A DNA stretch of 64,000 nucleotides from Sphingomonas sp. 67-36 (GTDB lineage: Bacteria > Pseudomonadota > Alphaproteobacteria > Sphingomonadales > Sphingomonadaceae). Positions 16,582-57,758 of the stretch are shown here, one piece after another. The stretch covers positions 1 through 64,000 of the forward strand of contig MKSU01000015.1 in assembly GCA_001897375.1 (NCBI GenBank). The letters run 5' to 3'. The notes below the pieces were generated by a model. It searched no databases and was not told where the DNA came from. It saw nothing but the letters and a program-made list of their open reading frames with translations. The stretch's first letter is position 1, and each line of letters opens with the position of its first letter. The position numbers and the translations under genes were made by a program.

Positions 16582-17367
16582 TCAGGCGAACAGCGCCACC
16601 GACTGCATCTGCTCCGCGACCATTTCCCCGGCGGTGTTCCAGATGCCCATCTGCTGCGAGGAACTGCCGGCGCGCGCGTAATCCGCATTGGAGCGCAGCA
16701 GCCACCAGCCGTCCTCCGTGGAAGGTGCGGGGCCGAGCACGTTCAGGATCCACGTCATCGAACTCATCGGCACGTTGCGCCCGATGAGGCGCAGCGCGGC
16801 GGGCGGCAGGCAGTCGCCGACCGCGAGCAGCTCGACCATCGGGTCCAGCCCCTCGCGCTCGTTGAGCCGCGTCCAGCGCAGCCATTCCGCCGGCTTCAGC
16901 CCCGGCCCGTCGCGCCGGTCGAGGAACTCGAAATTGCGGGTGAAGGCGACGGCGGAGGCGCCCTTGAAGGTGGTGTCGTTCGGGCCGGGGCGCGGGAAAT
17001 CGGGGAGGCTGGTGGTCTGGTAATCCACCTCGCTCTCGATCGCGCGCATGAAGACGAAGGTGCAGCGCAGCCCCAGCCCGGCCTCGCTCTCGATGCTGGC
17101 CTCGATGAAGGCGGCGTTCTTGCCGCGCCGCAAGCGGTGCGTCGTCACGAGGATCGGGCCGGCGAGCGGGCCGACGAACGACACCTGCGCCGAGCGCAGC
17201 GGCGGCAGGTCGTCATCCGATCGCATCGCGCAATGCAGCGCGATCGCCGCCGACAGCCCGCCATAGGAGGTGCGGCCCTGCAGCCAGTCGTCGGGGATCG
17301 TGCCGCGCCAGCCGGGGGCGTCGGGCATCGGCGCGAGGCCGTCGAGGATCTGCTTCAGGCAGGTCAT
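16582..17367 (-). CDS. Acyl-CoA thioesterase family protein (double hot-dog)
   Basis: 261 residues. Resembles the TesB-like/4HBT_3 thioesterase family: N-terminal hot-dog with TSYGGLSAAIALHCAMRSDD and a C-terminal hot-dog with SMTWILNVLGPAPSTEDGWW. Likely hydrolyses an acyl-CoA. Start at 17367 (MTCLKQILDG) overlaps the stop of the acyl-CoA ligase gene by 4 bp, which argues for translational coupling; the longer frame to 17571 is a shadow of the ligase. Together with the ligase, and probably the divergent SDR, it forms an acyl-CoA module. Confidence 0.82.
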   Translation of the reverse strand: MTCLKQILDGLAPMPDAPGWRGTIPDDWLQGRTSYGGLSAAIALHCAMRSDDDLPPLRSAQVSFVGPLAGPILVTTHRLRRGKNAAFIEASIESEAGLGLRCTFVFMRAIESEVDYQTTSLPDFPRPGPNDTTFKGASAVAFTRNFEFLDRRDGPGLKPAEWLRWTRLNEREGLDPMVELLAVGDCLPPAALRLIGRNVPMSSMTWILNVLGPAPSTEDGWWLLRSNADYARAGSSSQQMGIWNTAGEMVAEQMQSVALFA

Positions 17368-18896
17368 GCGAACTCCCCCGCCGCGAGCCGGTCGCGCAGC
17401 TCGCGCTTCAACACCTTGCCGATCGCGCTGCGCGGCAGTTCGTCTGCGACATGGAGTGCCGACAGCCGCTGCGTCTTGCCCAGCCGCGCATTGGCCCATT
17501 GGCGGATGTCCTCCGCGCTTTCCGTCGCGCCAGTGCGGGGCACGTAGAAGCCGACCGGCGTCTCGCCCCATTCATCGCTCGGCACCCCCACCACGGTGCA
17601 GTCCGCCACCGCCGGATGCTCCGCCAGCACCGCTTCCAGATCGGACGGGAAGACGTTGAACCCGCCCGAGATTATCATGTCCTTCTTGCGGTCCATGAGC
17701 GTCAGGAAGCCGTCCTCGTCGAACCGGCCGACATCGCCGTGGCGCAGCCAGCGGCCGCCCTCCGCGTCGAACCATTCGGCGTCGCGCGTCGCGGATTCGC
17801 GGCCGTGGTAGCCGTTCATCATCGCCGGAGAGCGCCCGACGATCTCGCCGATCCCGCCGGGCGGCACCTCATTGCCCTCCTCGTCGAGCAGCTTCGCCTC
17901 ATGCCCCGGCAGCAGGCGACCGACGGTGTGGAGCTTGTCGGGAAACTCATCCGCGACCAGCGCGAACGAGGCGCCACCCTCGGTCATGCCGTAATATTCC
18001 ACCAGCTTGCCGGGCCAGCGGTTCACCACGTCGCGCTTCAGCTCGGGTTTGAAGGGGGCGGAGGTGCATGTCTTGAAACGGAACGCCGACAGGTCGAACC
18101 GGTCGAAATCGGGGAGCGCCATGATGCGCTGATATTGCACCGGCACCAGCATGGTGTGGGTCGCGCGATACTTTTCGGCCAGCTCGAGGAAGCGGTGCGC
18201 ATCGAACTTCTTCATCAGCACCACCGTGCCGCCCCACGCCAGCGTCGGCAGGAAGCTGACGAGGGTGGTGTTCGAATAGAGGGGGGTGGAGAGCAAGGTC
18301 ACCGCCGTGCCGAAACCGGCCGCGGCATTGCGCGAGAAATGCTGCCAGCGCATCGCATGGCTCTGCACGATGCCCTTGGGAATACCGGTGGTGCCGGAGG
18401 AATAGATGATGTTGAAGCCATCCTCCGGCGCGATCGCGACCGGGGCGGGCGTCGCACCCTCGGGCGCGAGCCAGTCGCCCAGCGCCTCCAGCCGGACGAT
18501 GCGCGCGGCGAGCGCCTGGCCCTTCAGCGCATCGGCGTTGGCGGCGTCGAGGAAGACGAGGTTGGCCCCGCTGTCCGCGATCATGCCGGCGATCTGTTCC
18601 GGCGTCGCGGAGGGCTGGATCGGCGCGGCGATGCTGCCCGCGCGCAGCGCGCCGAGGAACACGATCGCCTGCTCGACCGAGGGATAGGAGACCATCGCCA
18701 CGGCCTGCCGCTGCTGCGTGCCGTCACGTTGCAGCGCGGCGGCGACGCGATCCATCGCGCGGCCTAGCGCGGCATAAGTCACCTGCGAATCATCGTCCGC
18801 TATCGCGAGCTTGTCCGGCTGGCGGCGAGCGTGAAGACGGATGAGGTCGGGCAGCAACCCGAACGGCTCGGCGAGCGCTTCGGCGGCATCGGTCAT
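17364..18896 (-). CDS. AMP-dependent acyl-CoA synthetase/ligase
   Basis: 510 residues, ANL superfamily. Activates a carboxylic acid to its CoA thioester through an acyl-adenylate. Visible motifs: phosphate loop NIIYSSGTTGIPKG, adenine-binding EYYGMTEGGAS, the hinge region LRHGDVGRFDEDGFLTLMDR with KKDMIISGGFNVFPSDLEAV, and the catalytic Lys in RSAIGKVLKREL. The thioesterase gene overlaps its end, and an SDR gene is divergent 71 bp away. Substrate chain cannot be assigned. Confidence 0.9.
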   Translation of the reverse strand: MTDAAEALAEPFGLLPDLIRLHARRQPDKLAIADDDSQVTYAALGRAMDRVAAALQRDGTQQRQAVAMVSYPSVEQAIVFLGALRAGSIAAPIQPSATPEQIAGMIADSGANLVFLDAANADALKGQALAARIVRLEALGDWLAPEGATPAPVAIAPEDGFNIIYSSGTTGIPKGIVQSHAMRWQHFSRNAAAGFGTAVTLLSTPLYSNTTLVSFLPTLAWGGTVVLMKKFDAHRFLELAEKYRATHTMLVPVQYQRIMALPDFDRFDLSAFRFKTCTSAPFKPELKRDVVNRWPGKLVEYYGMTEGGASFALVADEFPDKLHTVGRLLPGHEAKLLDEEGNEVPPGGIGEIVGRSPAMMNGYHGRESATRDAEWFDAEGGRWLRHGDVGRFDEDGFLTLMDRKKDMIISGGFNVFPSDLEAVLAEHPAVADCTVVGVPSDEWGETPVGFYVPRTGATESAEDIRQWANARLGKTQRLSALHVADELPRSAIGKVLKRELRDRLAAGEFA

Positions 18897-23305: not shown

Positions 23306-24526
23306 ATGGCCACCGCCGCCGACCTGGACCGCCCCGCCGACAGCCTCGACAGCTTCCGACAGGAAGCGCGCGCGTGGCTGGAGGCGAATTTCGATCCCGC
23401 GCTGAAGGGGCATGACAACGCCATGTCCGCCGTCGACGGGCCGACCGCCGAGACGCCGGCGCAGAAGAAGTGGCGCGAGGCGATGGGCGAGAAGGGTTGG
23501 GGCGTGCCGACCTGGCCGAAGGAATATGGCGGTGGCGGCCTCTCCCGCGCGGAGGCGCGCGTGCTGCAGGAGGAGATGGCGCGGATCGGCGCGTGGAACC
23601 CGATCGGCGGCATGGGCGTGATGATGTTCGGCCCGACGCTGCTGGAATATGGCAGCGAGGAGCAGAAGCAGGCGCATATTCCCGGCATCGTCCGCGGCGA
23701 GGTGCGCTGGTGCCAGGGCTATTCGGAGCCGGGCGCGGGATCGGACCTCGCCAGCCTCCAGACCTTCGCCGAGGACAAGGGCGATCACTATCTCGTCAAC
23801 GGCCAGAAGACCTGGACCTCCGGCGGCCAATGGGCCGACAAATGCTTCGCGCTGGTACGCACCGACAAGTCGCAGAAACATGCCGGCATCAGCTTCCTCC
23901 TGATCGACATGACCAGCGAGGGCGTGGAGACGCGGCCGATCCGGCTGATCTCCGGCGCGTCGCCGTTCTGCGAGACCTTCTTCACCAACGTGAAGGTGCC
24001 GAAGGGCAATCTCGTCGGGCGCGAGGGGCAGGGCTGGGAGATCGGCACCCGCCTGCTCCAGCACGAACGCAACTCGCTTTCCGGCGGCAGCGGCTCGGCG
24101 GCGCGGATGAACGCCGGCAGCACCGTGCCGCAGATCGCGAAGAAATATCGCGGCACCGACGCGGAAGGGCGCATCGCCGACGCGGACCTGCGCACGCGGA
24201 TCATCAAGCATGAGATGGACCAGCGCGCCTTCGCGCTCACGCTGCGCCGCGCCGCGCTGGAGGCGAAGGGCAATGCCGGCCCCTCCGCCGCGACCAGCAT
24301 CATGAAGAACGTCGGCGCGCGCATCACGCAGGATCGCGCGGAGCTGAACGTCGAGATCATGGGGATGCAGGGCCTGGGCTGGGAAGGCGAAGGCTTCTCG
24401 CGCGAGGAACTGGAGCAGACCCGCACCTGGCTGTGGGGCAAGGCGGTGTCGATCTACGGCGGATCGAGCGAGATCCAGAACAACGTGATCGCCAAGCGCA
24501 TCCTGGGGATGCTCGATCACCAGTGA
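23306..24526 (+). CDS. Acyl-CoA dehydrogenase, large partner of pair 1
   Basis: 406 residues. FAD-dependent acyl-CoA alpha,beta-dehydrogenase. The middle domain shows WCQGYSEPGAGSDLASLQTF and VNGQKTWTSGG, and the C-terminal FAD contact is SIYGGSSEIQNNVIAKRILG. The Glu seen in medium-chain enzymes at the EGT position is Gly here, so the base must lie elsewhere or in the partner subunit. Start 23306 is preferred because GGAG lies 8 nt upstream; an ATG at 23300 is too close to it. Followed after 96 bp by a smaller ACAD, forming a likely heteromeric enzyme. Confidence 0.9.
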   Translation: MATAADLDRPADSLDSFRQEARAWLEANFDPALKGHDNAMSAVDGPTAETPAQKKWREAMGEKGWGVPTWPKEYGGGGLSRAEARVLQEEMARIGAWNPIGGMGVMMFGPTLLEYGSEEQKQAHIPGIVRGEVRWCQGYSEPGAGSDLASLQTFAEDKGDHYLVNGQKTWTSGGQWADKCFALVRTDKSQKHAGISFLLIDMTSEGVETRPIRLISGASPFCETFFTNVKVPKGNLVGREGQGWEIGTRLLQHERNSLSGGSGSAARMNAGSTVPQIAKKYRGTDAEGRIADADLRTRIIKHEMDQRAFALTLRRAALEAKGNAGPSAATSIMKNVGARITQDRAELNVEIMGMQGLGWEGEGFSREELEQTRTWLWGKAVSIYGGSSEIQNNVIAKRILGMLDHQ

Positions 24527-24622
24527 ATTCGGTTAGGCGCGCGGGAGGCGTCTGGAGAGGGCCGGGTGGAGGGGGATGCGGCAGACGTCCTCCTCCCCGG
24601 TTTCCGGTGAAAGGGAAATGAC

Positions 24623-25687
24623 ATGGCTGCATTGAACGAAGAACAGGTGATGCTGCGCGACATGGCGCGCGAATGGGCCGACAACGAAAGCCCGGTCGCC
24701 GCCTTCCGCAAGCTGCGCGACGCGGGCGGGGGCAAGGGCTTCGATCCCGAGGCGTGGAGCGCGATCGGCGGCATGGGCTGGGCCGGGATCGTCATCCCCG
24801 AGGAATATGGCGGGTCGGCGTTCGGCTATCTCTCGCTCGGGCTGGTGCTGGAGCAGCTCGGCCGCAATCTCGCGGCGACTCCGCTCGCCTCGACCGCCGT
24901 GGCGGCGAGCGCGATCGTCATGGGATCGTCGGACAAGGCCAAAAGCGAATGGCTGCCGAAGCTCGCCAGCGGCGAGGCGATCGCGACGCTGGCGATCGAC
25001 GAGGGGCCGAGCCACGACATGAAGTTCGCGGCGACCGTCTCGGGCGGCAAGCTCAATGGCGTGAAGAAGTTCGTCGCGGAAGGCGACGGCGCGGATGCGT
25101 TCGTCGTCGCGGCGACCGACGGCCTCTATCTCGTGCCGAAAGGCGAAGGCGTGGCGGTGGCGGCGCGGCGCATGGCTGACAGCCGCAGCCATGCCGAAGT
25201 GACGTTCAGGGATGCCCCGGCCGAGAAGCTCGGCGACAATGCGCTGACGCAGGCGGTGGCCGACCGCGCCGCCGCCGTCACCGCCGCCGAGATGCTCGGC
25301 ATGGCGGAAAGCGCGTTCGGCCAGACGCTCGACTATCTCAAGCAGCGCGTGCAGTTCGGGCAGGTGCTCTCCACCTTCCAGGCGCTCCAGCACCGCATGG
25401 CGAAGATGTTGACCGAGCTGGAGTTGATGCGCTCGGCGGTGGAAGGCGCGCTGGAGGCGATCGACGCGGGGCGCTCGGACGTCGATCAGGCGGTGAGCCT
25501 CGCGAAGGCGGTGGCGAACGATACGCTGCGCCTCGTCAGCCGCGAGACGGTGCAGCTACACGGCGGCGTCGGCATGACCGACGAGTTCGACGCGGGCCTC
25601 TATCTCAAGCGCGCGGCGGTGCTGGAGACGATGTGGGGCAATGCCTCGTGGCATCGCGACCGGTTCGGGCGGCTCAACGGTTACTGA
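24623..25687 (+). CDS. Acyl-CoA dehydrogenase, small partner of pair 1
   Basis: 354 residues. Typical N-terminal helical domain (LNEEQVMLRDMAREWADNES) and C-terminal helical domain (LDYLKQRVQFGQVLSTFQAL, QLHGGVGMTDEFDAGLYLKR). It ends in WGNASWHRDRFGRLNGY and lacks the GG(S/T)xxIQ stretch of the large partner. This division of motifs is as in heterotetrameric ACADs of steroid side-chain degradation. Convergent with the TetR regulator gene. Confidence 0.88.
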   Translation: MAALNEEQVMLRDMAREWADNESPVAAFRKLRDAGGGKGFDPEAWSAIGGMGWAGIVIPEEYGGSAFGYLSLGLVLEQLGRNLAATPLASTAVAASAIVMGSSDKAKSEWLPKLASGEAIATLAIDEGPSHDMKFAATVSGGKLNGVKKFVAEGDGADAFVVAATDGLYLVPKGEGVAVAARRMADSRSHAEVTFRDAPAEKLGDNALTQAVADRAAAVTAAEMLGMAESAFGQTLDYLKQRVQFGQVLSTFQALQHRMAKMLTELELMRSAVEGALEAIDAGRSDVDQAVSLAKAVANDTLRLVSRETVQLHGGVGMTDEFDAGLYLKRAAVLETMWGNASWHRDRFGRLNGY

Positions 25688-25732: not shown

Positions 25733-26977
25733 CTAATCCCCGATCACGCGATCGTCGAACAGGCCGAAGGTGAGGGTGGAGGCGTAGAGCGCGATCGCGC
25801 GTTCGCGCGGCATCGACCACGCCCATTTGCGCATGTCGAAGGCGGCATTGAGGAAGGCCATCAGCGCCTGCGCCGCGATCAGCGCGTCGACCGCGCGGAT
25901 CGTCCCTTCCGCGATCCCGTCGGAGATCGTGCCGGCGAAGCGGCGTGCGATGCGGTTCGATCGCTCCACCATCACCTGCCGCACGCCCAGCGGCAGCGCG
26001 GTGAGCGCGGTGGTGCGCAGCAGCGGCCCAAGCTCCGAGAATTGCACGTCGAGCAAGGTCGCGATCGTGCCCGCCAGCCGGTCCCAATGGCTCCCGCCGC
26101 GCTCGTCGGCGAGCCGCTGTGCCGCCGCGATCGTGTCGAAGCTGCGCTTGTAGCAGGCGACGACCAGATCGTCCTTGGCGTCGAGATGGTGGTAGAAGCT
26201 GCCCTTGGTGACGTTCAGCTCGGACGCGATGCGCTGCACCGAGGCGCCGCGATAGCCAAGCTCGTTGATCAGCCGCGTCGCCGCCAGCAGGAATGCCTCG
26301 CGCCCCGGCACCGCCTCGTCATGCGGCAGGTCGATCGGCGCCGGGCGCCATTCGGCTTCCGGCCGCGCGATGCCGTGGCGGAACACCTCCATCAGCCGCG
26401 CTTCGGCACGGGGATATTGATCCGGCTCGTAGCGGCCCAGCCATACCGGCAGCCAGAAGGTGTTCTCCAGCAGCACGTGCGCGCGCGCGCCATTGAGGTC
26501 GGTCTGCTGCCGTGCCTCCGCCGGTCCCCACAGCAGGCGGGTGCGGCGGAACACCTCGCGCCACCGCGCCATCAGCCGCGAGCGCACCGGCTCGTCCATC
26601 GCGCGCAGGTCGGAAAGCCCGGCCATCTGCCGTTCCTCGCCGCGCTGGACGCGCATCAGCCGCGCCATGTTGAGCGCGAGATAACGCTCGACCCGCGCGT
26701 CCGGCGTCGTCTCCTCCATCGCCTCGTCGAGCATCGACAGCAGCGAATCGAGCGTATGCTCGAACGCGGCGGCGGCGAGATCCTCCTTGCGCTTGAAATA
26801 ATAAGTGACGCTGGTGGTGTTCAGCCCGACGCGTCGCGCGACATCGGCGAAGGTCATGCCCTTCGCGCTCTGTTCGTTGATCGCCTCAGCGGCCGCGGCG
26901 AGGATCGCGTCACGTTTCGCCCGGAAGCGCCGCGTGTTCGTCTCCTCCCCCCGGCCGGTATCCCCCGTGCCGTGCAT
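25733..26977 (-). CDS. Double TetR-type transcriptional regulator (two HTH domains in one chain)
   Basis: 414 residues, twice the usual TetR length. First DNA-binding domain about 17-70 (MTFADVARRVGLNTTSVTYY, FKRKEDL), then a ligand-like helical domain (about 75-215). A second DNA-binding domain at about 225-275 (GASVQRIASELNVTKGSFYH, HLDAKDDL) is followed by a second helical domain to the end. Both HTHs look intact, so one chain carries what a TetR dimer normally supplies. It is divergent from the five-gene operon at 27132 (154-bp gap) and convergent with ACAD pair 1; it is likely to control one or both. Confidence 0.88.
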   Translation of the reverse strand: MHGTGDTGRGEETNTRRFRAKRDAILAAAAEAINEQSAKGMTFADVARRVGLNTTSVTYYFKRKEDLAAAAFEHTLDSLLSMLDEAMEETTPDARVERYLALNMARLMRVQRGEERQMAGLSDLRAMDEPVRSRLMARWREVFRRTRLLWGPAEARQQTDLNGARAHVLLENTFWLPVWLGRYEPDQYPRAEARLMEVFRHGIARPEAEWRPAPIDLPHDEAVPGREAFLLAATRLINELGYRGASVQRIASELNVTKGSFYHHLDAKDDLVVACYKRSFDTIAAAQRLADERGGSHWDRLAGTIATLLDVQFSELGPLLRTTALTALPLGVRQVMVERSNRIARRFAGTISDGIAEGTIRAVDALIAAQALMAFLNAAFDMRKWAWSMPRERAIALYASTLTFGLFDDRVIGD

Positions 26978-27131
26978 CCGGCCACCTTAGCAGCAACAAT
27001 TCGAAGGAACAGTCCCTTTCGCGCGTGTTGCGGCAGGGCGTTTTCATAAGGGAGAAATGATGATTCGGGCGCTTTACCGAAAGATGGGTACGGTCTAGAG
27101 CCGCTGGCTGAACAGGCCTTGGAGGGATGCG

Positions 27132-28439
27132 ATGGACTTCACGCTGAGCGAACGCGAAACCTATTTCCGCGACCGGGTACGCGATTTCATCGACCAGCAC
27201 ATCCGCCCCCGCCAGGCGGAATATGAGCGCCAGCATCACGAGGGCGATCCGTGGAAGGTGATTCCGGTGATCGAGGAGGTGAAGGCCAAGGCGAAAGAAG
27301 CCGGGCTGTGGAACTTCTTCATGCCGCCGCATTCCGGACAGTCGCATGTCGACGACACGTTCGAGTTCGAGGGCACGCAGCTCACCAACCTCGAATATGC
27401 GCTGTGCGCCGAGGAGATGGGCAAGGTCGGCTGGGCGAGCGAATGCTTCAACTGCTCCGCCCCCGATACCGGCAACATGGAAGTGTTGCACCGCTACGGT
27501 ACGCGCGAGCAGAAGGAGCAGTGGCTGCGCCCGCTGATGAACGGCGAGATCCGCTCCGTCTTCCTGATGACCGAGCCGCAGGTCGCCTCTTCCGACGCCA
27601 CCAATATCGAGACGCGGATCGAGCGCGACGGCGATCATTACGTCATCAACGGCCGCAAATGGTGGTCGTCGGGCGTGGGCGATCCGCGCTGCAAGATCGG
27701 CATCCTGATGGGCAAGACGAGCTTCGAAGGCTCGCGCCATCAGCAGCAGAGCCAGATCCTCGTGCCGATGGACACGCCGGGCGTGAAGATCGAGCGGATG
27801 CTCTCCGTCTATGGCTATGACCACGCACCGCACGGCCATGGCGAGGTGAGCTTCACCAATGTCCGCGTGCCGGTGGAGAATCTGCTGCTCGGCGAGGGCC
27901 GGGGCTTCGAGATCGCGCAAGGCCGGCTCGGGCCGGGACGTATCCATCACTGCATGCGCACGATCGGCGTGGCGGAGGTCGCGATCGAGAAGATGGCGCA
28001 GCGCCTCGTCAGCCGCGTCGCGTTCGGCAAGCGCATCTCCGACCATAGCGTGTGGGAGCAGCGCATCGCCCGCGCGCGCATCGATATCGAGATGACGCGC
28101 CTGCTGTGCCTCAAGGCCGCCGACATGATGGACAAGGCCGGCAACAAGTCCGCCAAGCTCGAGATCGCGATGATCAAGGTGCAGGCGCCGAACATGGCGC
28201 TGCAGATTCTCGACGATGCGATCCAGGCGCATGGCGGCGGCGGCGTGGCGGAGGATTTCGGCCTTGCCCACGCCTGGGCGGCGATGCGCACCCTGCGCTT
28301 CGCGGACGGGCCGGACGAGGTGCACTGCCGCGCCATCGCGCGTGACGAGTTCGGCAAATACGCCGACTGGAAAGCCGAGCGCCCCGCGCCGCGCGGCGGC
28401 GTGGAGATTTCGAGCGGGGACATCGGCGTCTCGCGCTGA
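27132..28439 (+). CDS. ACAD10/11-type acyl-CoA dehydrogenase
   Basis: 435 residues, acyl-CoA dehydrogenase fold. It resembles the ACAD domain of human ACAD10/ACAD11 and Pseudomonas LvaC rather than ordinary ACADs: [60 protein letters not shown] and FADGPDEVH. In those systems the enzyme works with an aminoglycoside-phosphotransferase-like kinase on 4-hydroxyacyl-CoA. Such a kinase is encoded two genes downstream (29594). GGAGGG lies 6 nt before the start. First gene of the operon 27132-32248. Confidence 0.9.
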
Positions 28440-28508
28440 AACCCGCTTGCTGACTGACCCCTGGTGCCCCGGCTGCGACCGGGATGACCTTATCGACTGG
28501 AGAGGCGC

Positions 28509-29597
28509 ATGAAGGCCGCCGTTTTGTTCGAAGCGAAGAAGCCGCTGGAGATCATGGACGTCGACGTGTCCAAGCCGGCGGCGCATGAGGTGCTGATCCG
28601 CACGCTCGCCTGCGGCGTGTGCCGTTCCGACCTGCATTTCATCGACGGGGCCTATCCGCATCCCTTGCCGGCGATTCCCGGCCATGAGGCGGCGGGGATC
28701 GTCGAGGCGGTCGGTTCCGAGGTGCGCACGGTGAAACCGGGCGACCATGTCGTCACTTGCCTTTCCGCCTTCTGCGGCCATTGCGAATATTGCGTGACGG
28801 GCCGGATGTATCTCTGTCTCGGCGCGGAGACACGGCGACAGGCCGGGGCGGAGCCGCGCCTCAGGTTCCCGGACGGCAGCCCGGTCAACCAGATGCTCAA
28901 CCTGTCGGCCTATGCCGAGATGATGCTGGTGCACGAACATGCCTGCGTCGCGATCGACCCGGATATGCCGCTGGACCGCGCCGCGCTGATCGGCTGCGCG
29001 GTGACGACGGGCGCGGGCGCGGTGTTCAACACCACCGATGTGTCGCCGGGCGAGACGGTGTGCGTCGTCGGCTGCGGCGGGATCGGGCTTGCGGCGGTGA
29101 ACGCGGCGAAGATCGCCGGCGCGGGCAAGATCATCGCGCTCGATCCGGTGCCGGAGAAGCGCGCCATCGCCGAGAAGCTCGGCGCGACCCACAGTTATGA
29201 TCCGCTCGCGGAAAATACGGTGGCGGAGGTGGTGGAGGCCACCAGGGGCGGCGTCGATCACGCGATCGAGGCGGTCGGCCGCCCGCAATCGGCGGATACC
29301 GCGGTGAAGGTGCTGCGACGCGGCGGCACGGCGACGATCCTCGGCATGATGCCGCTCAGCGAGAAGGTCGGCCTCTCCGCGATGGACCTGCTCTCCGGCA
29401 AGCGGCTCCAGGGCGGGATCATGGGCTACAACCGTTTCCCGGTCGATATTCCCCGGCTGGTCGATTTCTACCAGCGCGGGCTGCTCGATCTCGACACGAT
29501 CATCGCGGACCGGATGCCGCTCGCGAACATCAACCATGCGTTCGACGAGCTTCGCAAGGGCGACACGACGCGCAGCGTGATCGTGTTCGATCAGTGA
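28509..29597 (+). CDS. Zinc-dependent alcohol dehydrogenase (MDR family)
   Basis: 362 residues. The catalytic zinc ligands are in CGVCRSDLH and GHEAAGIVEAVG; the structural zinc Cys cluster is FCGHCEYCVTGRMYLC; the NAD-binding motif is VVGCGGIGLAAV followed by Asp in ALDPVPEKR, which suggests NAD rather than NADP. The sequence is of the class III-like/acyl-alcohol dehydrogenase group. In this operon it could oxidise a hydroxylated substrate, or an alcohol or aldehyde precursor. Its stop overlaps the start of the kinase gene. Confidence 0.9.
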   Translation: MKAAVLFEAKKPLEIMDVDVSKPAAHEVLIRTLACGVCRSDLHFIDGAYPHPLPAIPGHEAAGIVEAVGSEVRTVKPGDHVVTCLSAFCGHCEYCVTGRMYLCLGAETRRQAGAEPRLRFPDGSPVNQMLNLSAYAEMMLVHEHACVAIDPDMPLDRAALIGCAVTTGAGAVFNTTDVSPGETVCVVGCGGIGLAAVNAAKIAGAGKIIALDPVPEKRAIAEKLGATHSYDPLAENTVAEVVEATRGGVDHAIEAVGRPQSADTAVKVLRRGGTATILGMMPLSEKVGLSAMDLLSGKRLQGGIMGYNRFPVDIPRLVDFYQRGLLDLDTIIADRMPLANINHAFDELRKGDTTRSVIVFDQ

Positions 29598-30652
29598 CCG
29601 ACACCAGCCTCCAGACCGACATCGCCGAGCGCGACCGGCTCGATACCGATCGCCTCTCGGCATGGATGAAGGACAATGTGCCGGACTTCGCCGGGCCGCT
29701 GACCTATGCCAAGTTCGCCGGCGGCCAGTCCAACCCGACCTACAAGCTCAATACCCCGGCGCGCGATTACGTGCTGCGTCGCAAGCCGATGGGCGAGTTG
29801 CTGCCGTCCGCTCATGCGGTCGATCGCGAATATCGCGTGATCGCCGGGCTGCACCCCACCGGCTTCCCCGTGCCGCGCCCGTTCGGGTTGTGCGAGGACG
29901 ATGCGGTGATCGGCTCCGCCTTCTACGTGATGGAGATGGTGGAGGGGCGCACGATCTGGGACGGCGCCTTCCCCGGCATGGATGCCGACACGCGCCGCGC
30001 GCATTACAATGCGATGATCGACACGCTCGCGCAGCTTCACAACGTCGATCATGTCGCGGCCGGGCTGGAGACGTTCGGCCGTCCCGGCAATTATTTCGAG
30101 CGGCAGGTGTCGCGCTGGACGAAGCAATATCGCGGCGCCGAGACCGAGCATATGGAGCCGATGGAGCGGCTGATCGAATGGCTGCCGCGCACCCTGCCGC
30201 CGCAGACGCGCACCTCGATCGTCCACGGCGACTATCGCTGCGACAACATGAAGTTCGCGCCGGGGCTGGAACCGCGCGTCGCCGCCGTGCTCGATTGGGA
30301 ATTGTCGACGCTCGGCGATCCGCTGGCGGACTTCTCCTATTTCCTGATCTCGTGGGTGACGCAGCCGGAGGGGCGTTCCGGCGTGATGGGGCTGACCGGG
30401 CCGGAAACCGGCATCCCGACCGTCGAGGAGGTCGTCGCGCGCTATTGCGAGAGGACGAACCGGCCGGAGGGGCTGCCCGATCTCAACTGGTATCTGTCGT
30501 TCAACATGTTCCGCCTCGCGTCGATCGTGCAGGGGATCAGGAAGCGCTTCCTGATCGGCACCGCCTCCAACGCCAATGCCGAGGCCGCCAGCGCGCGCGT
30601 GCCGGCACTGGCCGAGGCGGCATGGGCGTTCGCCGTGAAGGCAGGGGCGTAG
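29594..30652 (+). CDS. ACAD10/11- and LvaA-like kinase (APH phosphotransferase fold)
   Basis: 352 residues with a GTG start at 29594 that overlaps the dehydrogenase stop (GTGA). Protein-kinase-like APH fold: glycine-rich FAGGQSNPTYKL, Lys in YVLRRKPMGELLPSAHAVDR, the Brenner motif VHGDYRCDNMKF and the metal-binding LDWELSTLGDPLADFSYF. These match the N-terminal kinase half of human ACAD10/11 and bacterial LvaA, which phosphorylates the 4-hydroxyl of 4-hydroxyacyl-CoA. In animals kinase and dehydrogenase are fused; here they are separate genes in one operon. Annotators often call this family simply phosphotransferase. Confidence 0.88.
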   Translation: MTDTSLQTDIAERDRLDTDRLSAWMKDNVPDFAGPLTYAKFAGGQSNPTYKLNTPARDYVLRRKPMGELLPSAHAVDREYRVIAGLHPTGFPVPRPFGLCEDDAVIGSAFYVMEMVEGRTIWDGAFPGMDADTRRAHYNAMIDTLAQLHNVDHVAAGLETFGRPGNYFERQVSRWTKQYRGAETEHMEPMERLIEWLPRTLPPQTRTSIVHGDYRCDNMKFAPGLEPRVAAVLDWELSTLGDPLADFSYFLISWVTQPEGRSGVMGLTGPETGIPTVEEVVARYCERTNRPEGLPDLNWYLSFNMFRLASIVQGIRKRFLIGTASNANAEAASARVPALAEAAWAFAVKAGA

Positions 30653-30668
30653 AAAGGGGAATTCGCGC

Positions 30669-31433
30669 ATGTCGCTGTTCGATCTGACCGGCAAGGTCGT
30701 GCTCATCACGGGTTCCTCGCGCGGGATCGGCAAGGCCGCCGCCATCGCCTGCGCCGAGCAAGGGGCGAAGGTGGTCATCTCCAGCCGCAAGCAGGACGCC
30801 TGCGACATGGTGGCGAAGGAGATCAACGACCGTTTCGGCGCGGGCACCGCGATCGCCGTCGCCGCCAATATCTCCGACAAGGCGGGCTTGCAGCATCTGG
30901 TGGACGAGACGCGGCGCGCGTTCGGCCGGATCGACTGCCTCGTCTGCAACGCTGCCTCCAATCCCTATTACGGCCCGCAGGAGGGGATCGCGGACGAGCA
31001 GTTCCGCAAGATCCTCGACAACAACATCATCTCCAATCACTGGCTGATCACGATGGTCGCGCCGGAGATGAAGGAGCGCGGGGAGGGATCGATCGTCATC
31101 GTCTCCTCCATCGGGGGACTGCGCGGATCGGCGACGATCGGCGCCTATTGCATCTCCAAGGCGGCCGACATGCAGCTCGCGCGCAATCTGGCCTATGAAT
31201 ATGGCCGCTACGGCATCCGCGTGAACTGCATCGCGCCGGGCCTGATCAAGACCGATTTCGCCAGGGCGCTGTGGGAGGACGAGGCGGCGGTGGCCGAGCG
31301 CAACCGCACCACCCCGCTGCGCCGCATCGGCGAGCCGGAGGAGATCGCCGGCGCGGTCGTCTATCTCGCGTCGAAGGCGAGCGGCTTCATGACCGGGCAG
31401 GTGATGGTGATCGATGGCGGCGTGACGATCTGA
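30669..31433 (+). CDS. Short-chain dehydrogenase/reductase (operon gene 4)
   Basis: 254 residues. [50 protein letters not shown] (Ser and Tyr-x3-Lys) and a C-terminal [12 protein letters not shown] are intact. It begins 16 bp after the kinase gene with a clear ribosome binding site (AAAGGGG). In the proposed 4-hydroxy acid route it could interconvert keto and hydroxy groups. Confidence 0.9.
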
Positions 31434-31447
31434 ACAGGAGACGGGAA

Positions 31448-32248
31448 ATGGCAAGGTTCACCGACAAGTCGATCATCGTCACCGGCGCTGGCTCCGGCAT
31501 CGGCCGCGCGGCGGCGACGCTGTTCGCGGCCGAGGGCGGCAGGGTGATCGTCGCCGACGTGACCGACGGCGCGGAGGAAACCGCGAAGGCGATCCGCGCC
31601 GGCGGCGGCGTGGCGGAGGCGATCCGCATCGATGCGGGCTCGGAAGCCGATGTGGAGAAGGCGGTCGCGCTCGCCTGCGACCGCTACGGCGGGCTGGACG
31701 TGATGTTCGCCAACGCCGGCATCTCCGGCGGCATGGCGAACATCTTCGACACCAGCGTGGACCTCATCACCGAGGTGCTGCGCGTCAACCTTATCGGCCC
31801 GTTCCTCGCCGTGAAGCACGCCGCCCCCCGCATCGCCGAACGCGGCAAGGGCGCGATCATCCTTACCGCCAGCGTCGCCGGCATCCGCTCCGGCGCGGGG
31901 TCGCCGGCCTATTCGGCGTCTAAGGCTGGCGTGATCAACCTCGCCAAGGTTTCCGCGCAGCAGCTTTCCGGCTCGAACGTGCGGGTCAACGCGATCTGCC
32001 CCGGCCTGACCGAGACGGGGATGACCAGGCCCACCTTCGATTACGCGCGCGACGCCGGGAAGATGGATCGGCTCGGGCGTCTGAACCCGCTCCGTCGCGG
32101 CGCGCAGCCGGAGGAACTGGCGAAGGTGGCGCTGTTCCTCGCCTCCGATGACGCGAGCTACGTCAACGGACAGGCGATCGCGGTGGACGGCGGACTGTCG
32201 TCGAGCCATCCGGTGACGAAGCAGGAATATGGGCGGACGGCGGTTTAG
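31448..32248 (+). CDS. Short-chain dehydrogenase/reductase (operon gene 5)
   Basis: 266 residues. [28 protein letters not shown], a catalytic Ser in [18 protein letters not shown] and the C-terminal [15 protein letters not shown] are present. The Asp after the second strand (VIVADVTDG) suggests NAD. Start at 31448 has AGGAG 8 nt upstream and lies 14 bp after the preceding SDR, so it is the last gene of the operon. The two adjacent SDRs are not close copies of each other. Confidence 0.9.
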
Positions 32249-35918: not shown

Positions 35919-37046
35919 TCAATAACCCGCCAGTTGCGCCAGCCGGTCGGCGTGGAAATTGGCGTCGCCGAACATCTCGGCCAGCACGCGCTGGCGCTTC
36001 ATGTAGAAGCCGATGTCGTACTCGTCGGTCATGCCGATGCCGCCGTGCATCTGCACGCCCTCCTGCACCGACAGCATCGTCGCGAGGCCGGTCATCGCCT
36101 TGGCGACCGAGACGGCGGCGTCCGCCTTGTCGTCTCCGGCGTCGAGAAGCTGCTGCGCCTTGAGCACCGCGGCGCGCGCCACTTCCATCTCGCTGTAGAG
36201 ATGCGCGGCGCGGTGCTGGAGCGCCTGGAAGCTGCCGATCAGCGTGCCGAACTGCTTGCGTTCCTTGAGGTAATTGACCGTCATGTCCATCGCGCCCGCG
36301 CCGACGCCGAGCATCTCGGCGGCAGCGCCAGTGCGGCCCGCGCGGAGCAGGCGGCCGAGCGGATCGCGGCCGGCGTCGACCTCGCCGATCACCGCATCGG
36401 CATCGACCTCGACGCCGTCGAACTCGATCCGCGCGGCGAGGCTGGAATCCGCCAGCCGCTCCGGCGTGACGGACATCTTCGCCGCGCCCTGCGGCACCGC
36501 GAACAGGGTGACGCCCGCCTCGTCGTCAGCCGCGCCTGCCGTGCGCGCCGCGACGATCAGCAGGTCCGCGACATGGCCGTGGGTGACGAACTGCTTCCTG
36601 CCCGAGAGGCGGAAGCCGTTGCCGGCGCGCTCCGCCTTGAGGCCGACGCTGGAGCGGTGCTTCGCCCCTTCGTCGATCGCCAGCGCCGCGACCGTCTCGC
36701 CCTTCAGGATGCCGGGATACCAGCGCTCGGCATGGCCGGTGCCCTTCAGCGCCTCGACCGCCGCGACCGCCGTGGAGAGGAAGGGGGAGGGGGAGAGGTT
36801 GCGCCCGATCTCCTCCAGCACCACGCCCGCCTCGACATGGCCGAGGCCAAGGCCGCCCTGATCCTCGCCGATCAGGATGCCGGTGAAGCCCATCTCGGCG
36901 AACTGCTTCCACAAATCGCGGCTGAAGCCGGTGGCGTCCTTGTCGTCGCGCAGCTTGCGCATGTGGCTGACGGGTGCGCTCTCGCCGACGAAATCCTTCG
37001 CCGTGTCGCGCAGCATCGATTGTTCATCATTCAGGAAAAGCGGCAT
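35919..37046 (-). CDS. Acyl-CoA dehydrogenase, small partner of pair 2
   Basis: 375 residues. N-terminal FLNDEQSMLRDTAKDFVGES, middle LSGRKQFVTHGHVADLLIVA and a C-terminal helical bundle (YLKERKQFGTLIGSFQALQH, MHGGIGMTDEYDIGFYMKRQ). It ends FGDANFHADRLAQLAGY and lacks the C-terminal GGTxxxQ segment. Almost certainly works with the large ACAD encoded 60 bp upstream (37107). Same domain pattern as 24623. Confidence 0.9.
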   Translation of the reverse strand: MPLFLNDEQSMLRDTAKDFVGESAPVSHMRKLRDDKDATGFSRDLWKQFAEMGFTGILIGEDQGGLGLGHVEAGVVLEEIGRNLSPSPFLSTAVAAVEALKGTGHAERWYPGILKGETVAALAIDEGAKHRSSVGLKAERAGNGFRLSGRKQFVTHGHVADLLIVAARTAGAADDEAGVTLFAVPQGAAKMSVTPERLADSSLAARIEFDGVEVDADAVIGEVDAGRDPLGRLLRAGRTGAAAEMLGVGAGAMDMTVNYLKERKQFGTLIGSFQALQHRAAHLYSEMEVARAAVLKAQQLLDAGDDKADAAVSVAKAMTGLATMLSVQEGVQMHGGIGMTDEYDIGFYMKRQRVLAEMFGDANFHADRLAQLAGY

Positions 37047-37106
37047 TTTTCACTCCGTCGCCCCGGCGCGGCCGGAGCGGTTGATGGCTGGAAGACGGGC
37101 GGGGCT

Positions 37107-38297
37107 TCACGCGCCCGGCAGGTTCAGGATGCGTTTGGCGATGATGTTGAGCTGCACCTCCGACGTGCCGCCCTCGATCGAGTTCGCCTTGGTGCGCAGC
37201 CACGCGCGCGCCTCGCGTCCGCCGTTCGTAGCCTCGCTCTCCCATTCCAGCTCGTCCGAGCCGCCCGCCGCCATCATCAGCTCGTAACGGGACTTGTTCA
37301 GCTCGGTGCCGTAATATTTCATCATCGAGGGCTGGGCGGGATGCGCCTTGCCGGCCTTCAGTTCGTCGATGAAGCGCTCGGATTGCGCCGCGAACGCCTT
37401 CGCCCGCACCTCGAACAAAGCGATCTGCGCGCGCAGCACCGGATCGGCGAGGCGGCCCTCGGCGTCCAGCCCGATCGTCGCCTTCGCTCCCTCGATCAGC
37501 GGGTTCTTGCCGCCCCCGCCGAGGCCCATGCCGGAGATCATCTCGCGCTCGTGCCCGAGCAGGTACTTCGCGACGTCCCAGCCCTTGTTCAGCTCGCCGA
37601 CCAGATTCTCCTTCGGCACCTTCACATTGTCGAAGAAGGTTTCGCAGAACGGCGAATAGCCGGAGATCAGCAGGATCGGCTTGGTCGACACGCCCGGCGT
37701 GCGCATGTCGAACAGCACGAAGCTGATGCCGTTGTGCTTGTTCGTCGGATCGGTGCGGACGAGGCAGAAGATCCAGTCGGCCTTGTCGGCGTAGCTGGTC
37801 CAGATCTTCTGGCCGTTGACGAGGAAGTGATCGCCCTTGTCTTCCGCCTTGGTGGCGAGGCTGGCGAGGTCGGAGCCCGCGTTCGGCTCCGAATAGCCCT
37901 GGCACCAGCGAATCTCGCCGCGCGCGATCTTCGGCAGATGCTCCTTCTTCTGCGCCTCGTTGCCGTATTTCAGCAGCGCCGGCCCGAGCATCGAGATGCC
38001 GAACGACGAGAGCGGATTGCGCGCGCGGATCGCCGCCATCTCCTCGCGCAGCACCTTGGTCTCGGCCGCCGAGAGGCCGCCGCCGCCATATTCCTTCGGC
38101 CAGTCGGGCACGGTCCAGCCGCGCTCGCCCATGCGGTCCATCCACTGCTTCTGCGCGGGCGACATCGCGCTCTGGTCGCGGCCGCCCCAGACGGCGTCCT
38201 TCTCGGTGCGGACCGGCTCGCGCATCTCGGGCGGGCAATTGGCTTCCAGCCAGGCGCGCGTCTCGGCGCGGAATTGTTCGAGGTCGTCGCTCATCAT
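37107..38297 (-). CDS. Acyl-CoA dehydrogenase, large partner of pair 2
   Basis: 396 residues. WCQGYSEPNAGSDLASLATK, LVNGQKIWTSYADKADWIFC, FCETFFDNVKVPKENLVGE and the C-terminal SIEGGTSEVQLNIIAKRIL are present. It resembles 23306 and 55482 and is followed by its small partner. The start region overlaps the amidase stop by 4 bp (ATGATGAGC), so it belongs to the same transcription unit. Confidence 0.92.
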   Translation of the reverse strand: MMSDDLEQFRAETRAWLEANCPPEMREPVRTEKDAVWGGRDQSAMSPAQKQWMDRMGERGWTVPDWPKEYGGGGLSAAETKVLREEMAAIRARNPLSSFGISMLGPALLKYGNEAQKKEHLPKIARGEIRWCQGYSEPNAGSDLASLATKAEDKGDHFLVNGQKIWTSYADKADWIFCLVRTDPTNKHNGISFVLFDMRTPGVSTKPILLISGYSPFCETFFDNVKVPKENLVGELNKGWDVAKYLLGHEREMISGMGLGGGGKNPLIEGAKATIGLDAEGRLADPVLRAQIALFEVRAKAFAAQSERFIDELKAGKAHPAQPSMMKYYGTELNKSRYELMMAAGGSDELEWESEATNGGREARAWLRTKANSIEGGTSEVQLNIIAKRILNLPGA

Positions 38298-39667: not shown

Positions 39668-41695
39668 TCACTTCAACTGGCTGCCGCTCTCGGCCGCCGC
39701 CTTGAGGCTTTCGGCGACCTTGAAGCCATGCTTCTCCAGCCCCGCGACGACCTTCTTCAGCCCCTCGCTCTGCGCCCAGAACATTGGGCCGCCGCGATAG
39801 ACCGGCCAGCCGTAGCCGTAGATCCACACCACATCGATGTCCGACGCGCGCTGCGCCTTCTTCTCCTCGAGGATCAGCGCGCCTTCGTTGACCATCGTGT
39901 AGAGCGTGCGCTCGACGATCTCCTGATCGGTGATCTCGCGCTTCGGCAGGTTCGATTTCTGGCGGAATTCCTCGATGATCTCGGCGACGCGCGGGGAAGG
40001 GGTGGGGTTACGCTTCTCATCGTAATCGTAGAAGCCGGCCTGCTTCTTCTGCCCCCAGCGACCCTCGGCGCAGAGCGCGTCGCGGATCGTCTCGATCCGG
40101 TTCGGGTCGCGGTGCCAGCCGATGTCGACGCCCGCGAGATCGGACATCTGGAACGGCCCCATCGGCATCCCGAAATCGGTGTGCACCTTGTCTATCTGCT
40201 GCGGGGTGGCCCCTTCCATCAGCAGCTTGTTCGCCTCGATCTGGCGCGGGGCGAGCATCCGGTTGCCGATGAAGCCGTGACACACGCCCGCGACCACCGC
40301 GACCTTCCTGATCTTCTTGGCGAGCGCCATGACGGTGGCGAGCACGTCCTTCGCGGTCTTGTCGCCGCGCACCACCTCCAGCAATTTCATCACATTGGCG
40401 GGGGAGAAGAAATGCATCCCCACCACATCCTCCGGCCGGCCGGTGACGGCGGCGATCTCGTTGATGTCGAGATAGGAGGTGTTCGACGCGAGGATCGCGC
40501 CGGGCTTGGCGATCTTGTCGAGCTTGCCGAAGATGTCCTTCTTGACGTCCATATTCTCATAGACCGCCTCGATGATGAGATCGCAGTCCCCGAGGTCGTC
40601 GAGGCTGAGCGTGGGGGTGAGCAGCCCCATCGCCTTTTCCGGCGCGTCGGGTTTGATGCGGCCCTTGGCGGCGGACGCCTCGTAGTTCTTGCGCATCACG
40701 CCCACGCCGCGATCGAGCGCTTCCTGCTGCATCTCGACGATGGTGACGGGGATGCCCGCCGACAGGAAGTTCATGCTGATCCCGCCGCCCATCGTGCCGG
40801 CGCCGATCACGCCGACGCGATTGATCGGGCGGAGCGGCGTCTTCGGATCGACGTCGTCGATCTTGGCGGCCTGGCGTTCGGCGAAGAAGATGTGGCGCTG
40901 GGCGGCGGACTGCACGCCCGTCATCAGCTTCATGAACTCGTCGCGCTCGAACTTCATGCCCTCGTCGAAGGGAAGCTCGGTCGCGGCGACGGCGCAGCGG
41001 ATGTTCGCTTCCGGCGCATCGAAGCCGCGGAACTTCTTCGCATTGGCCTTGCGGAATTCGGCGACCGCTTCGGGATCGGGTTTCGCGTCCTTGTCGCGGA
41101 TGCGCGGGATCGGGCGCTTGCGGGCAATCTCGCGGGCAAAGGCGATCGCGTCCGCCTCGAGGCTGTCCTCGCCCACCACGCGATCGATCAGGCCGAGTTC
41201 CGCCGCCTTCTTCGCCGGCACCGGATCGCCGATCGCCAGCATCGGCAGCGACGCCTTCATACCGATCAGGCGCGGCAGGCGCTGCGTGCCGCCCGCGCCG
41301 GGGAGCAGGCCAAGCTTCACCTCCGGCGTGCCGATCATCGCGGAGGGCACCGCGACGCGATAGTGGCAGGCCAGCGCCGTCTCGCACCCGCCGCCCAGCG
41401 CGGTGCCGTGGATCGCCGCGACGATCGGCTTGGGCGAGGCGTCCATCATGTCGATCACCTCATGCAGCGAGGCGCCCATCGGCGGTTTGCCGAACTCGGT
41501 GATGTCCGCCCCCGCGAAGAAGGTGCGCCCGTCACAGCGCAGCACCATCGCGGCGATCGAGCCGTCGGCGATGCCTTCCTTCACGCCGGCCTCCAGCCCG
41601 TCGCGCACCGCCGCGCCGAGCGCGTTCACCGGCGGCGAGTTCGAGATGATGACGAGCACGTCGCCGTGGCGTTCGGTGCGGACGGGGGAAGTCAT
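39668..41695 (-). CDS. FadB/FadJ-like enoyl-CoA hydratase / 3-hydroxyacyl-CoA dehydrogenase fusion
   Basis: 675 residues. The N-terminal crotonase domain (1-200) has the oxyanion-hole segment [18 protein letters not shown] and the catalytic Glu in [20 protein letters not shown]. The NAD-binding dehydrogenase domain starts near 295 ([18 protein letters not shown]) with the catalytic His in [19 protein letters not shown] and GNRMLAP. A duplicated C-terminal domain follows. Together they hydrate enoyl-CoA and oxidise L-3-hydroxyacyl-CoA. No thiolase gene lies next to it. It follows the serine hydrolase gene by 36 bp. Confidence 0.93.
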
Positions 41696-55481: not shown

Positions 55482-56669
55482 CTACCCCGCCTGCACCTCG
55501 CGGAACGGGATGGTGCGATCGACCTCCGGCTCTTTCGGCAGGCCCAGCACCCGCTCGCCGATGATGTTGCGCTGGATCTGGTCCGTGCCGCCGCCGATCG
55601 AGGTGAAATAGGCGTTGAGCGTCAGGAAGTTGGCGTCCTCCGCGCGCGGATGCTCCGGCCCCTGCAACAGGCTCTCCGGCCCGAGCAGCAGGGTGCGGAC
55701 GCGCGCTTCCTCGTGCAGGATGCGGCTCATCGCCAGCTTGCCCAGGGACATGATCGATGACGATGTGCCCTGTTGCAGCTCGGCCTTGGCGCGCTGCGTG
55801 TTGAGCTTGTTGAGCGCACGCCACGCGACCACCCGCGCCAGCTCCTGCCGGATCACCGGGTCGCCGAGCTTCCCGGCCTCCCGCGCGAGGCCGATCAGCG
55901 AATAGTCGCCCTTCGGCCCGCCCGCGCCCGAACGCGGCCCGCGCGCGCGATCGCCCATCACCGAGCGTTCATAGGCCAGCGCGGTCTGCAACACGCCCCA
56001 GCCGCCGCCGAGCGGCCCGAGCAGGTTGGCGTCGGGCACGAAGGCGTTGTCGATGAACACCTCGTTGAAATGCGCCTCGTCGGTGATCTGGCGCAGCGGG
56101 CGCACCTCCACGCCGTCCTGCTTCATCGGCAGGAAGAAGAAGCTGATGCCGCGATGCTTGGGCACGTCCCAGTCGGTGCGGGCGATCAGCATCCCGTAAT
56201 CGGCGACCTGCGCGCCGCTGGTCCACACCTTCTGGCCGGTGACGCGCCAGCCGCCCTCCACCTTGTCCGCCCGCGTGCGGATCGCGGCGAGGTCGCTGCC
56301 CGCGCCCGGCTCCGAATAGAGCAGGCACATGCCGACCTCGCCGGCGAGCAGTTTCGGCACGATCTCACGCCTGAAGGCGTCGGTGGCATGGGCGAGCGCG
56401 GTATTGGCCCACAGGTTCGTGCGGTCCTGCCCCGCGCCGGGCGCGTCGACCGCCGCGAAGGCGCGCTCGACGATCTTCGCCTGATCGTTCGACAGGCCGC
56501 GCCCGTACCATTTCTCCGGCCAGCGCGGCACGGCCCAGCCGGCGTCGCGCACCTTCGCCAGCCATTCGCTGCGCGGATCGCGGCCGAACGTGTCATGGTG
56601 CGGCTTCACGCCCTTCCAGTTGGCGGCGAGCCACGCCTCGACCTCGGCTTTCAACTGTTCGTCGGTCAT
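55482..56669 (-). CDS. Acyl-CoA dehydrogenase, large partner of pair 3
   Basis: 395 residues. CLLYSEPGAGSDLAAIRTRA, VTGQKVWTSGAQVADYGMLI, FNEVFIDNAFVPDANLLGPL and the C-terminal SIGGGTDQIQRNIIGERVLG. The ordinary catalytic EGT is GGT here. Start 56669 (MTDEQLKAEVEAWLAAN) overlaps the stop of the small partner by 4 bp (ATGA), indicating tight coupling. Convergent with nth, 3 bp apart. Confidence 0.92.
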   Translation of the reverse strand: MTDEQLKAEVEAWLAANWKGVKPHHDTFGRDPRSEWLAKVRDAGWAVPRWPEKWYGRGLSNDQAKIVERAFAAVDAPGAGQDRTNLWANTALAHATDAFRREIVPKLLAGEVGMCLLYSEPGAGSDLAAIRTRADKVEGGWRVTGQKVWTSGAQVADYGMLIARTDWDVPKHRGISFFFLPMKQDGVEVRPLRQITDEAHFNEVFIDNAFVPDANLLGPLGGGWGVLQTALAYERSVMGDRARGPRSGAGGPKGDYSLIGLAREAGKLGDPVIRQELARVVAWRALNKLNTQRAKAELQQGTSSSIMSLGKLAMSRILHEEARVRTLLLGPESLLQGPEHPRAEDANFLTLNAYFTSIGGGTDQIQRNIIGERVLGLPKEPEVDRTIPFREVQAG

Positions 56670-57706: not shown

Positions 57707-57742
57707 CGCGTATCCTCTCTCGTGGCCGGCGCTCCCGGCGTC

Positions 57743-57758
57743 CATAACCAAAGTTATG
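57743..57758. promoter_or_regulatory. Candidate operator palindrome upstream of ACAD pair 3
   Basis: CATAAC-CAAA-GTTATG, perfect 6-bp arms, 37 bp before the small ACAD start and 116 bp before ccmC. Its A/T-rich character stands out in the GC-rich region. Could bind a TetR/FadR-like repressor; no regulator gene is adjacent. Confidence 0.35.

Follow-up and report, generated by a model that had tools for sequence, protein, structure and literature searches.

The stretch analyzed here (hereafter the window) comprises 64,000 nucleotides of contig MKSU01000015.1 from Sphingomonas sp. 67-36, and our subject is a five-gene cluster at positions 27132-32248 that faces a divergent regulator. The first gene encodes a 435-residue acyl-CoA dehydrogenase (ACAD; CoA, coenzyme A) with three Acyl-CoA_dh Pfam domains (27132-28439, plus strand). 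Four genes follow on the same strand: a medium-chain zinc alcohol dehydrogenase (Zn-ADH; 28509-29597; 362 residues; Pfam ADH_N/ADH_zinc_N), a kinase with an APH fold and a GTG start (29594-30652; 352 residues; Pfam APH, E = 6.4e-54), and two short-chain dehydrogenases/reductases (SDRs) matching Pfam adh_short_C2, SDR1 (30669-31433; 254 residues) and SDR2 (31448-32248; 266 residues). For SDR2 the likely start is 31448, against 31271 in the mechanical call of open reading frames (ORFs). From ACAD to SDR2 the successive spacings are 69 bp, a 4-bp overlap of the kinase gene with the Zn-ADH stop, 16 bp and 14 bp; the five co-directional genes plausibly form one transcript. On the minus strand, the 414-residue regulator (25733-26977) carries two TetR_N stretches in a single chain (Pfam). 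The ORFs and Pfam domains thus confirm the gene set that an earlier, sequence-only reading had described, with an ACAD, a Zn-ADH, a kinase and two SDRs facing a double TetR, and all seven motifs quoted in it were found in the ACAD and kinase proteins. The best NCBIfam model for the Zn-ADH was TIGR03989, at 324 bits and under its cut-off of 440. The nearest named relatives, Croceicoccus, Novosphingobium, Sphingobium and Erythrobacter, point to a sphingomonad-like alphaproteobacterium.

The same reading had identified the dehydrogenase and the kinase as the two halves of ACAD10/ACAD11, which near-full-length homology and conserved residues bear out. When searched against the PDB, the ACAD matched mouse ACAD11 best (8v3u, E = 1.5e-135); the top matches, 8v3u and 8v3v (mouse ACAD11), 2wbi (human ACAD11) and 4hr3, ranged from 1.5e-135 to 5.9e-128, with the next at 4.8e-42. 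For the kinase, the top matches 3dxp (2e-110), ACAD11 (8v3v, 3.2e-73) and 9o56 spanned 2e-110 to 3.6e-61, and the next stood at 3.3e-9. Direct comparison gave 55% identity between the ACAD and mouse ACAD11; for the kinase the figures were 51% with 3dxp and 38% with the kinase domain of ACAD11. Because the ACAD and the kinase are two separate ORFs with the Zn-ADH gene between them, and are not fused, we call the pair ACAD10/11-type rather than ACAD10/11. Relative to mouse ACAD11, the ACAD carries an insertion of about 14 residues around residues 69-83 (27336-27380), common to a copy on a Novosphingobium capsulatum plasmid.

We then followed the residues on which ACAD11 chemistry depends. The accessible part of PMC12440821 lists D220, N225, R86 and R176 in the kinase and R626, H634, R637 and D753 in the ACAD as key residues of ACAD11, and names the catalytic aspartates of both domains. 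The deposited sequences of 8v3u and 8v3v differ from one another only at the kinase aspartate (changed in 8v3u) and the ACAD aspartate (changed in 8v3v), and since the differences fall at exactly these two residues, they anchor the positions. By alignment, mouse R626, H634, R637 and D753 correspond to R265, H273, R276 and D392 of the window ACAD, and D220, N225 and the CoA-contacting R176 to D213, N218 and R170 of the kinase. Every one of the 177 ACAD11-type rows (165 distinct) had all four ACAD residues (R/H/R/D), as did all 11 LvaC-type rows (7 distinct), LvaC being the ACAD of the levulinate (lva) operon of Pseudomonas; among 39 other ACAD rows, 34 kept none, two kept one, one kept two and two kept all four. 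The R176 position of the kinase was Arg in all 103 rows (79 distinct) at least 40% identical to the window kinase, and Ala, Ser or Val in 14 LvaA-type rows (8 distinct).

Phylogenetic placement pointed the same way. We built quick trees of 81 ACAD rows and 74 kinase rows with support from the Shimodaira-Hasegawa-like approximate likelihood ratio test (SH-aLRT); both carry long-branch warnings, and the mouse row is among the long branches of the ACAD tree. The window ACAD and mouse ACAD11 fell in a 62-row clade (SH-aLRT 99), LvaC types formed a 6-row clade of their own (100), and both clades lay within a group of 69 rows (98). Among the kinases, the window kinase, 3dxp and the mouse kinase domain shared a 48-row clade (99), with LvaA types distant in a 5-row clade (100). 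The comparison proposed earlier, with LvaA, LvaC and ACAD10/11, therefore came out divided: both proteins group with ACAD11, and the LvaA and LvaC types are separate, supported clades.

The lva references were picked by gene order in Pseudomonas, as in Pseudomonas sp. Kh13 (locus L289), and are not KT2440 sequences; ACAD10 itself lay outside the comparison. L289 holds a divergent regulator, a 352-residue kinase, a 118-residue DUF6285 protein, an ACAD, a 255-residue SDR and an AMP-forming ligase, an order that agrees with the published one. Names given by eye from sequence are those of its regulator and transporter and, further below, those of the LysR-like gene in L284 and the symporters in L056, L061 and L064. 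From its place in the gene order, we take the DUF6285 protein to be LvaB. The operon facts used here come from PMC6692424, PMC9628823 and PMC9399607 and from the two ACAD10/11 papers, PMC12440821 and PMC11342911. Another locus (L290), with a kinase, a protein in the DUF6285 range, a histidine-phosphatase-like protein and an ACAD, resembles the P. citronellolis cluster of PMC6692424, as far as the portion available describes it. Against L289, the window ACAD is 32% identical to LvaC and the window kinase 27% to LvaA. Compared with mouse ACAD11, L289 LvaC shows 36% identity (54% positive) and LvaA 24%, and the part of PMC11342911 at hand prints other values, 62% for LvaC and 29% for LvaA to ACAD11. 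If the KT2440 LvaC is truly 62% identical, the separation of our ACAD from LvaC would need revision; the separation of the kinase from LvaA would stand whichever LvaC identity holds (24% versus the printed 29%).

These data bear on the possibility that the cluster is a re-arranged lva operon for short 4-oxo or 4-hydroxy acids, serving a levulinate or gamma-valerolactone pathway. The reaction logic would be identical and an SDR could act as LvaD, itself an SDR according to the accessible part of PMC6692424, which also reports P. citronellolis without lvaB near its lva genes. Yet both proteins lie outside the LvaA- and LvaC-type clades at 27-32% identity, the facing regulator is TetR-type, the neighboring ACAD pairs and a FadB-type gene are as one would have for larger acids, and the only DUF6285 match in the genome lies on another contig (C9), beside an ordinary ACAD and not beside the 27132-32248 kinase. 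We consider a re-arranged lva operon distinctly unlikely. At C9:1079-3860, the DUF6285 gene and a kinase face that ordinary ACAD; 39 of the 398 genomes in the phylum sample carry DUF6285, and in the loci examined it mostly has a distant kinase beside it and no ACAD11-type ACAD. The statement that no lva-specific accessory gene is visible held for LvaB, as no LvaB-type gene adjoins the cluster, and was inexact for the rest: SDRs are present, and the window contains two AMP-forming ligases (17364-18896 and 43071-44810) that are 28-31% identical to L289 LvaE. We therefore rejected filing the locus as an lva operon, given the separate clades, the lack of an adjoining LvaB-type gene and the TetR-type regulator. 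Homology marks the locus as a split ACAD10/11-type system, set apart from lva by the clades of its enzymes, the accessory gene and the type of regulator.

We further investigated how widely the cluster is conserved. Matches at E <= 1e-100 were found for the kinase in 94 of 119 sampled family genomes and for the ACAD in 85 of 299 phylum genomes. In 19 family neighborhoods, stretches of 17-18 kb round kinases picked from the 30 best loci (L047-L065), an ACAD11-type ACAD was present in 17, the Zn-ADH at >=50% identity in 15, SDR2 at >=45% in 13 and SDR1 at >=50% in 8. ACAD3 and ACAD4, the neighboring pair at 35919-38297 of the window, each recurred in 13 of the 19 and the FadB-like gene in 12, followed by a beta-lactamase-fold hydrolase (7), an amidase (2) and, once each, the tandem TetR, TesB, FadD2, ACADs and ACADL; FadD1 and DUF885 were found in none of these neighborhoods. 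In the four that we read (L048, L056, L061 and L064), the gene preceding the ACAD resembles a GPH-type symporter, and the one scored, in L048, reached 157 bits with TIGR00792, under the cut-off of 231. The cluster is also conserved in Erythrobacter vulgaris; a Novosphingobium plasmid carries part of it, without the Zn-ADH, and a Croceicoccus plasmid has the same genes in altered order. Altogether, 27132-32248 is a real, conserved cluster holding an ACAD10/11-type pair split over two genes.

We also examined named ACAD11-type loci, the best 80 of 589 relatives; 26 of the 80 are shorter than 14 kb, so that some are cut off. A kinase at >=40% identity was present in 39 and any kinase match in 47; where the former was found, it preceded the ACAD in 25 loci and followed it in 14. 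SDR1 relatives at >=50% identity occurred in 12 of the 80, together with a kinase at >=40% in 9, and Marinobacter, Salinisphaera and Pseudomonas profundi share an ACAD-SDR1-kinase order. Because of this recurring order SDR1 is a candidate third enzyme, although most loci lack it. These counts also speak to the view that the ACAD is an ordinary redox enzyme and that the kinase acts on an unrelated substrate, their adjacency being incidental. Kinase-less ACAD11-type genes are indeed common, but the 47 loci with a kinase, the direct kinase neighborhood within the family and the retention of the residues of the phosphate-eliminating branch make that view very improbable.

Several observations weigh against the catabolic scheme proposed below. 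Kinases were missing from 33 of the 80 named loci, some of them, as said, cut short, and the Zn-ADH at >=45% identity was found in only 1 of the 80. Nearly all Pseudomonas genomes searched (57 of 59) have an ACAD11-type ACAD, of about 60% identity, at E <= 1e-80, and the best 80 include Pseudomonas loci in which no kinase was found near the ACAD11-type gene; in the copy read, from Pseudomonas putida HAI-2 (L284, 7020-9315), the ACAD faces a LysR-like gene with no kinase adjoining. Given these kinase-less loci and the Pseudomonas ACADs, the ACAD may in some settings work with a different partner or serve another function. At non-proteobacterial loci the kinase sits in a different branch of the kinase tree, and the tandem TetR, as counted above, accompanies the cluster in a single one of the 19 wider family neighborhoods. 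Among the residues, the CoA-contacting R86 fell, in our numbering, on Phe/Tyr in most rows, with an Arg two residues earlier in the mouse and window kinases. Finally, the two other ACADs that keep all four pocket residues (L084 and L245) lie outside the ACAD11-type class as drawn, so that R/H/R/D is not exclusive to it.

L084 and L245 themselves are 36-40% identical to ACAD11 and appear to be another branch of this type; each adjoins a kinase from a separate clade, one that includes two kinases from the Sphingomonas sp. 67-36 genome. This genome encodes more ACAD11-type ACADs on contigs C2 (56%), C1 (56%) and C13 (54%, at the contig end), as well as a weaker one on C17 (35%), which clusters among the LvaC types. 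There are kinases close to the copies on C1 and C2, both in the separate clade, and several kinase/ACAD pairs with different substrates may coexist in the genome. Elsewhere in P. putida HAI-2 (L283, 6052-9261), a different kinase branch has a setting of its own, with consecutive genes for a histidine-phosphatase-like protein, a small protein, the kinase (36% identical) and an SDR. On the lindane plasmid pISP1 of Sphingomonas sp. MM-1 (L083, 10001-11239), a 70.5%-identical ACAD11-type ACAD is divergent from linX/linA and sits between IS6100 copies with no kinase directly adjoining, and three further Sphingobium plasmids show the same 70.5% ACAD identity.

Control of the cluster may be local. 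The intergenic region between the regulator and the ACAD contains a single strongly kept block, a 25-bp imperfect palindrome at 27073-27097 (TTTACCG-N11-CGGTCTA), present in six of six same-genus places, the window included. Across 291 loci, the pattern was found in seven, corresponding to the window copy and five other same-genus places, one of them listed twice, and was absent from the other 284. At up to 3 mismatches, the genome has this one match and the reversed control gave 0; none is expected in the window by chance. The tandem TetR gene lies next to the ACAD in all five same-genus loci (L089-L093), in the place that the symporter-like gene takes in the four neighborhoods read. The block is consistent with a local operator at which the tandem TetR protein acts, and could instead be part of a promoter. 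Regulators matching the tandem TetR also adjoin the cluster on the Croceicoccus and Novosphingobium plasmids.

We propose that the cluster would open 4-hydroxy acids, and perhaps 4-oxo acids, to beta-oxidation. Activation to the CoA ester would fall to a ligase encoded outside the cluster; the kinase would then move a phosphate from ATP onto the 4-hydroxyl, as its family and catalytic residues suggest, and the ACAD would expel the phosphate using FAD, without net redox change, to give the trans-2-enoyl-CoA, as ACAD10/11 do. A FadB-type enzyme and a thiolase would complete the breakdown. Like LvaD, one of the SDRs probably turns 4-oxoacyl-CoA into its 4-hydroxy counterpart by reduction, a step we put forward tentatively, and the Zn-ADH might oxidize an alcohol or aldehyde precursor. 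SDR1 is a possible 4-oxoacyl-CoA/4-hydroxyacyl-CoA or 3-hydroxyacyl-CoA dehydrogenase. As long as the substrate is absent, the tandem TetR would keep the cluster repressed by acting at 27073-27097. That the kinase phosphorylates 4-hydroxyacyl-CoA and the ACAD eliminates the phosphate is highly likely on homology; the whole scheme, with accessory genes and repression, is somewhat more probable than its failure. The 4-hydroxyacyl-CoA biochemistry proposed by the sequence-only reading is thus supported by homology for an ACAD10/11-type pair and not as an lva-type one. In the part of PMC11342911 available, the kinase of ACAD10 favors the R form, and ACAD10/11 work without an added electron acceptor, and by homology we infer that both properties carry over to the bacterial pair. 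An extension to a family-wide sphingomonad module is unlikely as a whole: in it, the SDR and the Zn-ADH would convert the (S) and (R) forms of 4-hydroxyacyl-CoA into one another by way of the 4-oxo compound to feed an R-preferring kinase, both stereoisomers of large 4-hydroxy/4-oxo lipids would be used, and in the genus of the window the tandem TetR would read one dedicated operator to switch the module on.

Other genes of the window could belong to the same pathway. Two neighboring ACAD genes on the minus strand (35919-38297), apparently of a two-subunit type, have pimD and pimC as best NCBIfam models, both under their cut-offs, and perhaps take part, as neighbors of the kinase cluster in relatives. 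A FadB-like enoyl-CoA hydratase/3-hydroxyacyl-CoA dehydrogenase (39668-41695, minus strand), the gene that stands beside the cluster in 12 of the 19 family neighborhoods, is perhaps the next step. The AMP-forming acyl-CoA ligase at 43071-44810 (plus strand; 31% identical to L289 LvaE) is a candidate activating enzyme with a weak link to the pathway, being near the cluster at >=45% identity in only 1 of the 19. The window contains three neighboring ACAD pairs in all (23306-25687, 35919-38297 and 55482-57751), the first two leaning to pimC/pimD models, under cut-offs where scored.

This setting raises the possibility that the substrate is not straight-chain but a bulky acyl-CoA with a gamma-hydroxyl, derived from a terpenoid, alicyclic compound or steroid, with the flanking ACAD pairs taking the next rounds. 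Besides those three pairs, a TonB receptor, a carboxylesterase and an amidohydrolase in the Croceicoccus cluster and the symporter genes preceding the ACAD in the four relatives read would suit such a compound. The second-best model for the ligase at 43071-44810 is a steroid-24-oyl-CoA synthetase, a slight point since its 461 bits are far under the cut-off of 750. Every one of these links is, however, by neighborhood. The accessible parts of two papers on sphingomonad bile-salt degradation (PMC12882949 and PMC8399759) do not contain the word 'phosphotransferase', their few uses of 'kinase' concern other matters, and they offer no link from bile-salt or steroid side-chain catabolism to the cluster. 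We hold a bulky substrate of this sort to be rather unlikely. Within the ACAD10/11-type scheme that we favor, longer or bulkier 4-hydroxy/4-oxo acids are tentatively likelier substrates than levulinate, judging from the neighbors and the clade.

If the proposed roles are true, ACAD10/11 could be modeled in a bacterium, the enzymes that deliver their substrate would come within reach, and genes that the annotated records seen call only 'phosphotransferase family protein' or 'acyl-CoA dehydrogenase family protein' would gain a catabolic function. The cluster connects an animal lipid enzyme whose function has only lately been understood with a common, clearly delimited group of bacterial genes amenable to knockout and induction. 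That the chemistry is known makes the finding less surprising. Among the papers listed from the open-licence literature, we found no account of the sphingomonad cluster, its layout or its control site; the accessible part of PMC10949508 lists fitness modules for levulinic acid and 4-hydroxyvalerate in P. putida, with nothing on the cluster. What is already known is the kinase/ACAD chemistry, and a split bacterial ACAD10-like pair is known in principle, as a kinase and an ACAD from Burkholderia (B. pseudomallei) replaced the ACAD10 domains in vitro according to the portion of PMC11342911 available.

Three known systems frame the cluster. With the Pseudomonas lva operon (lvaABCDE, levulinate) it shares the kinase and ACAD logic, an SDR and the four pocket residues, but differs in its low identity to LvaA (27%) and LvaC (32%), in having no adjoining LvaB-type gene, in its TetR-type regulator and at the R176 position, which is not Arg in LvaA types. 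Like the B. pseudomallei pair, it is split, and the Burkholderia/Paraburkholderia pairs that we used for this comparison (L161 and L226, the B. pseudomallei sequences themselves lying outside it) fall in the same large clades; the Burkholderiales loci seen with a kinase have the kinase and then the ACAD, whereas the window has the order ACAD, Zn-ADH, kinase. The third is mammalian ACAD10/ACAD11, which acts in 4-hydroxy acid catabolism according to the accessible parts of PMC12440821 and PMC11342911: both domains are homologous over nearly their full length, the catalytic and phosphate-pocket residues of mouse ACAD11 are kept, and the proteins share its clade in both trees. In contrast to the mammalian enzymes, the two halves are encoded here by separate genes, within a bacterial cluster that also has genes for a Zn-ADH, a pair of SDRs and the tandem TetR.

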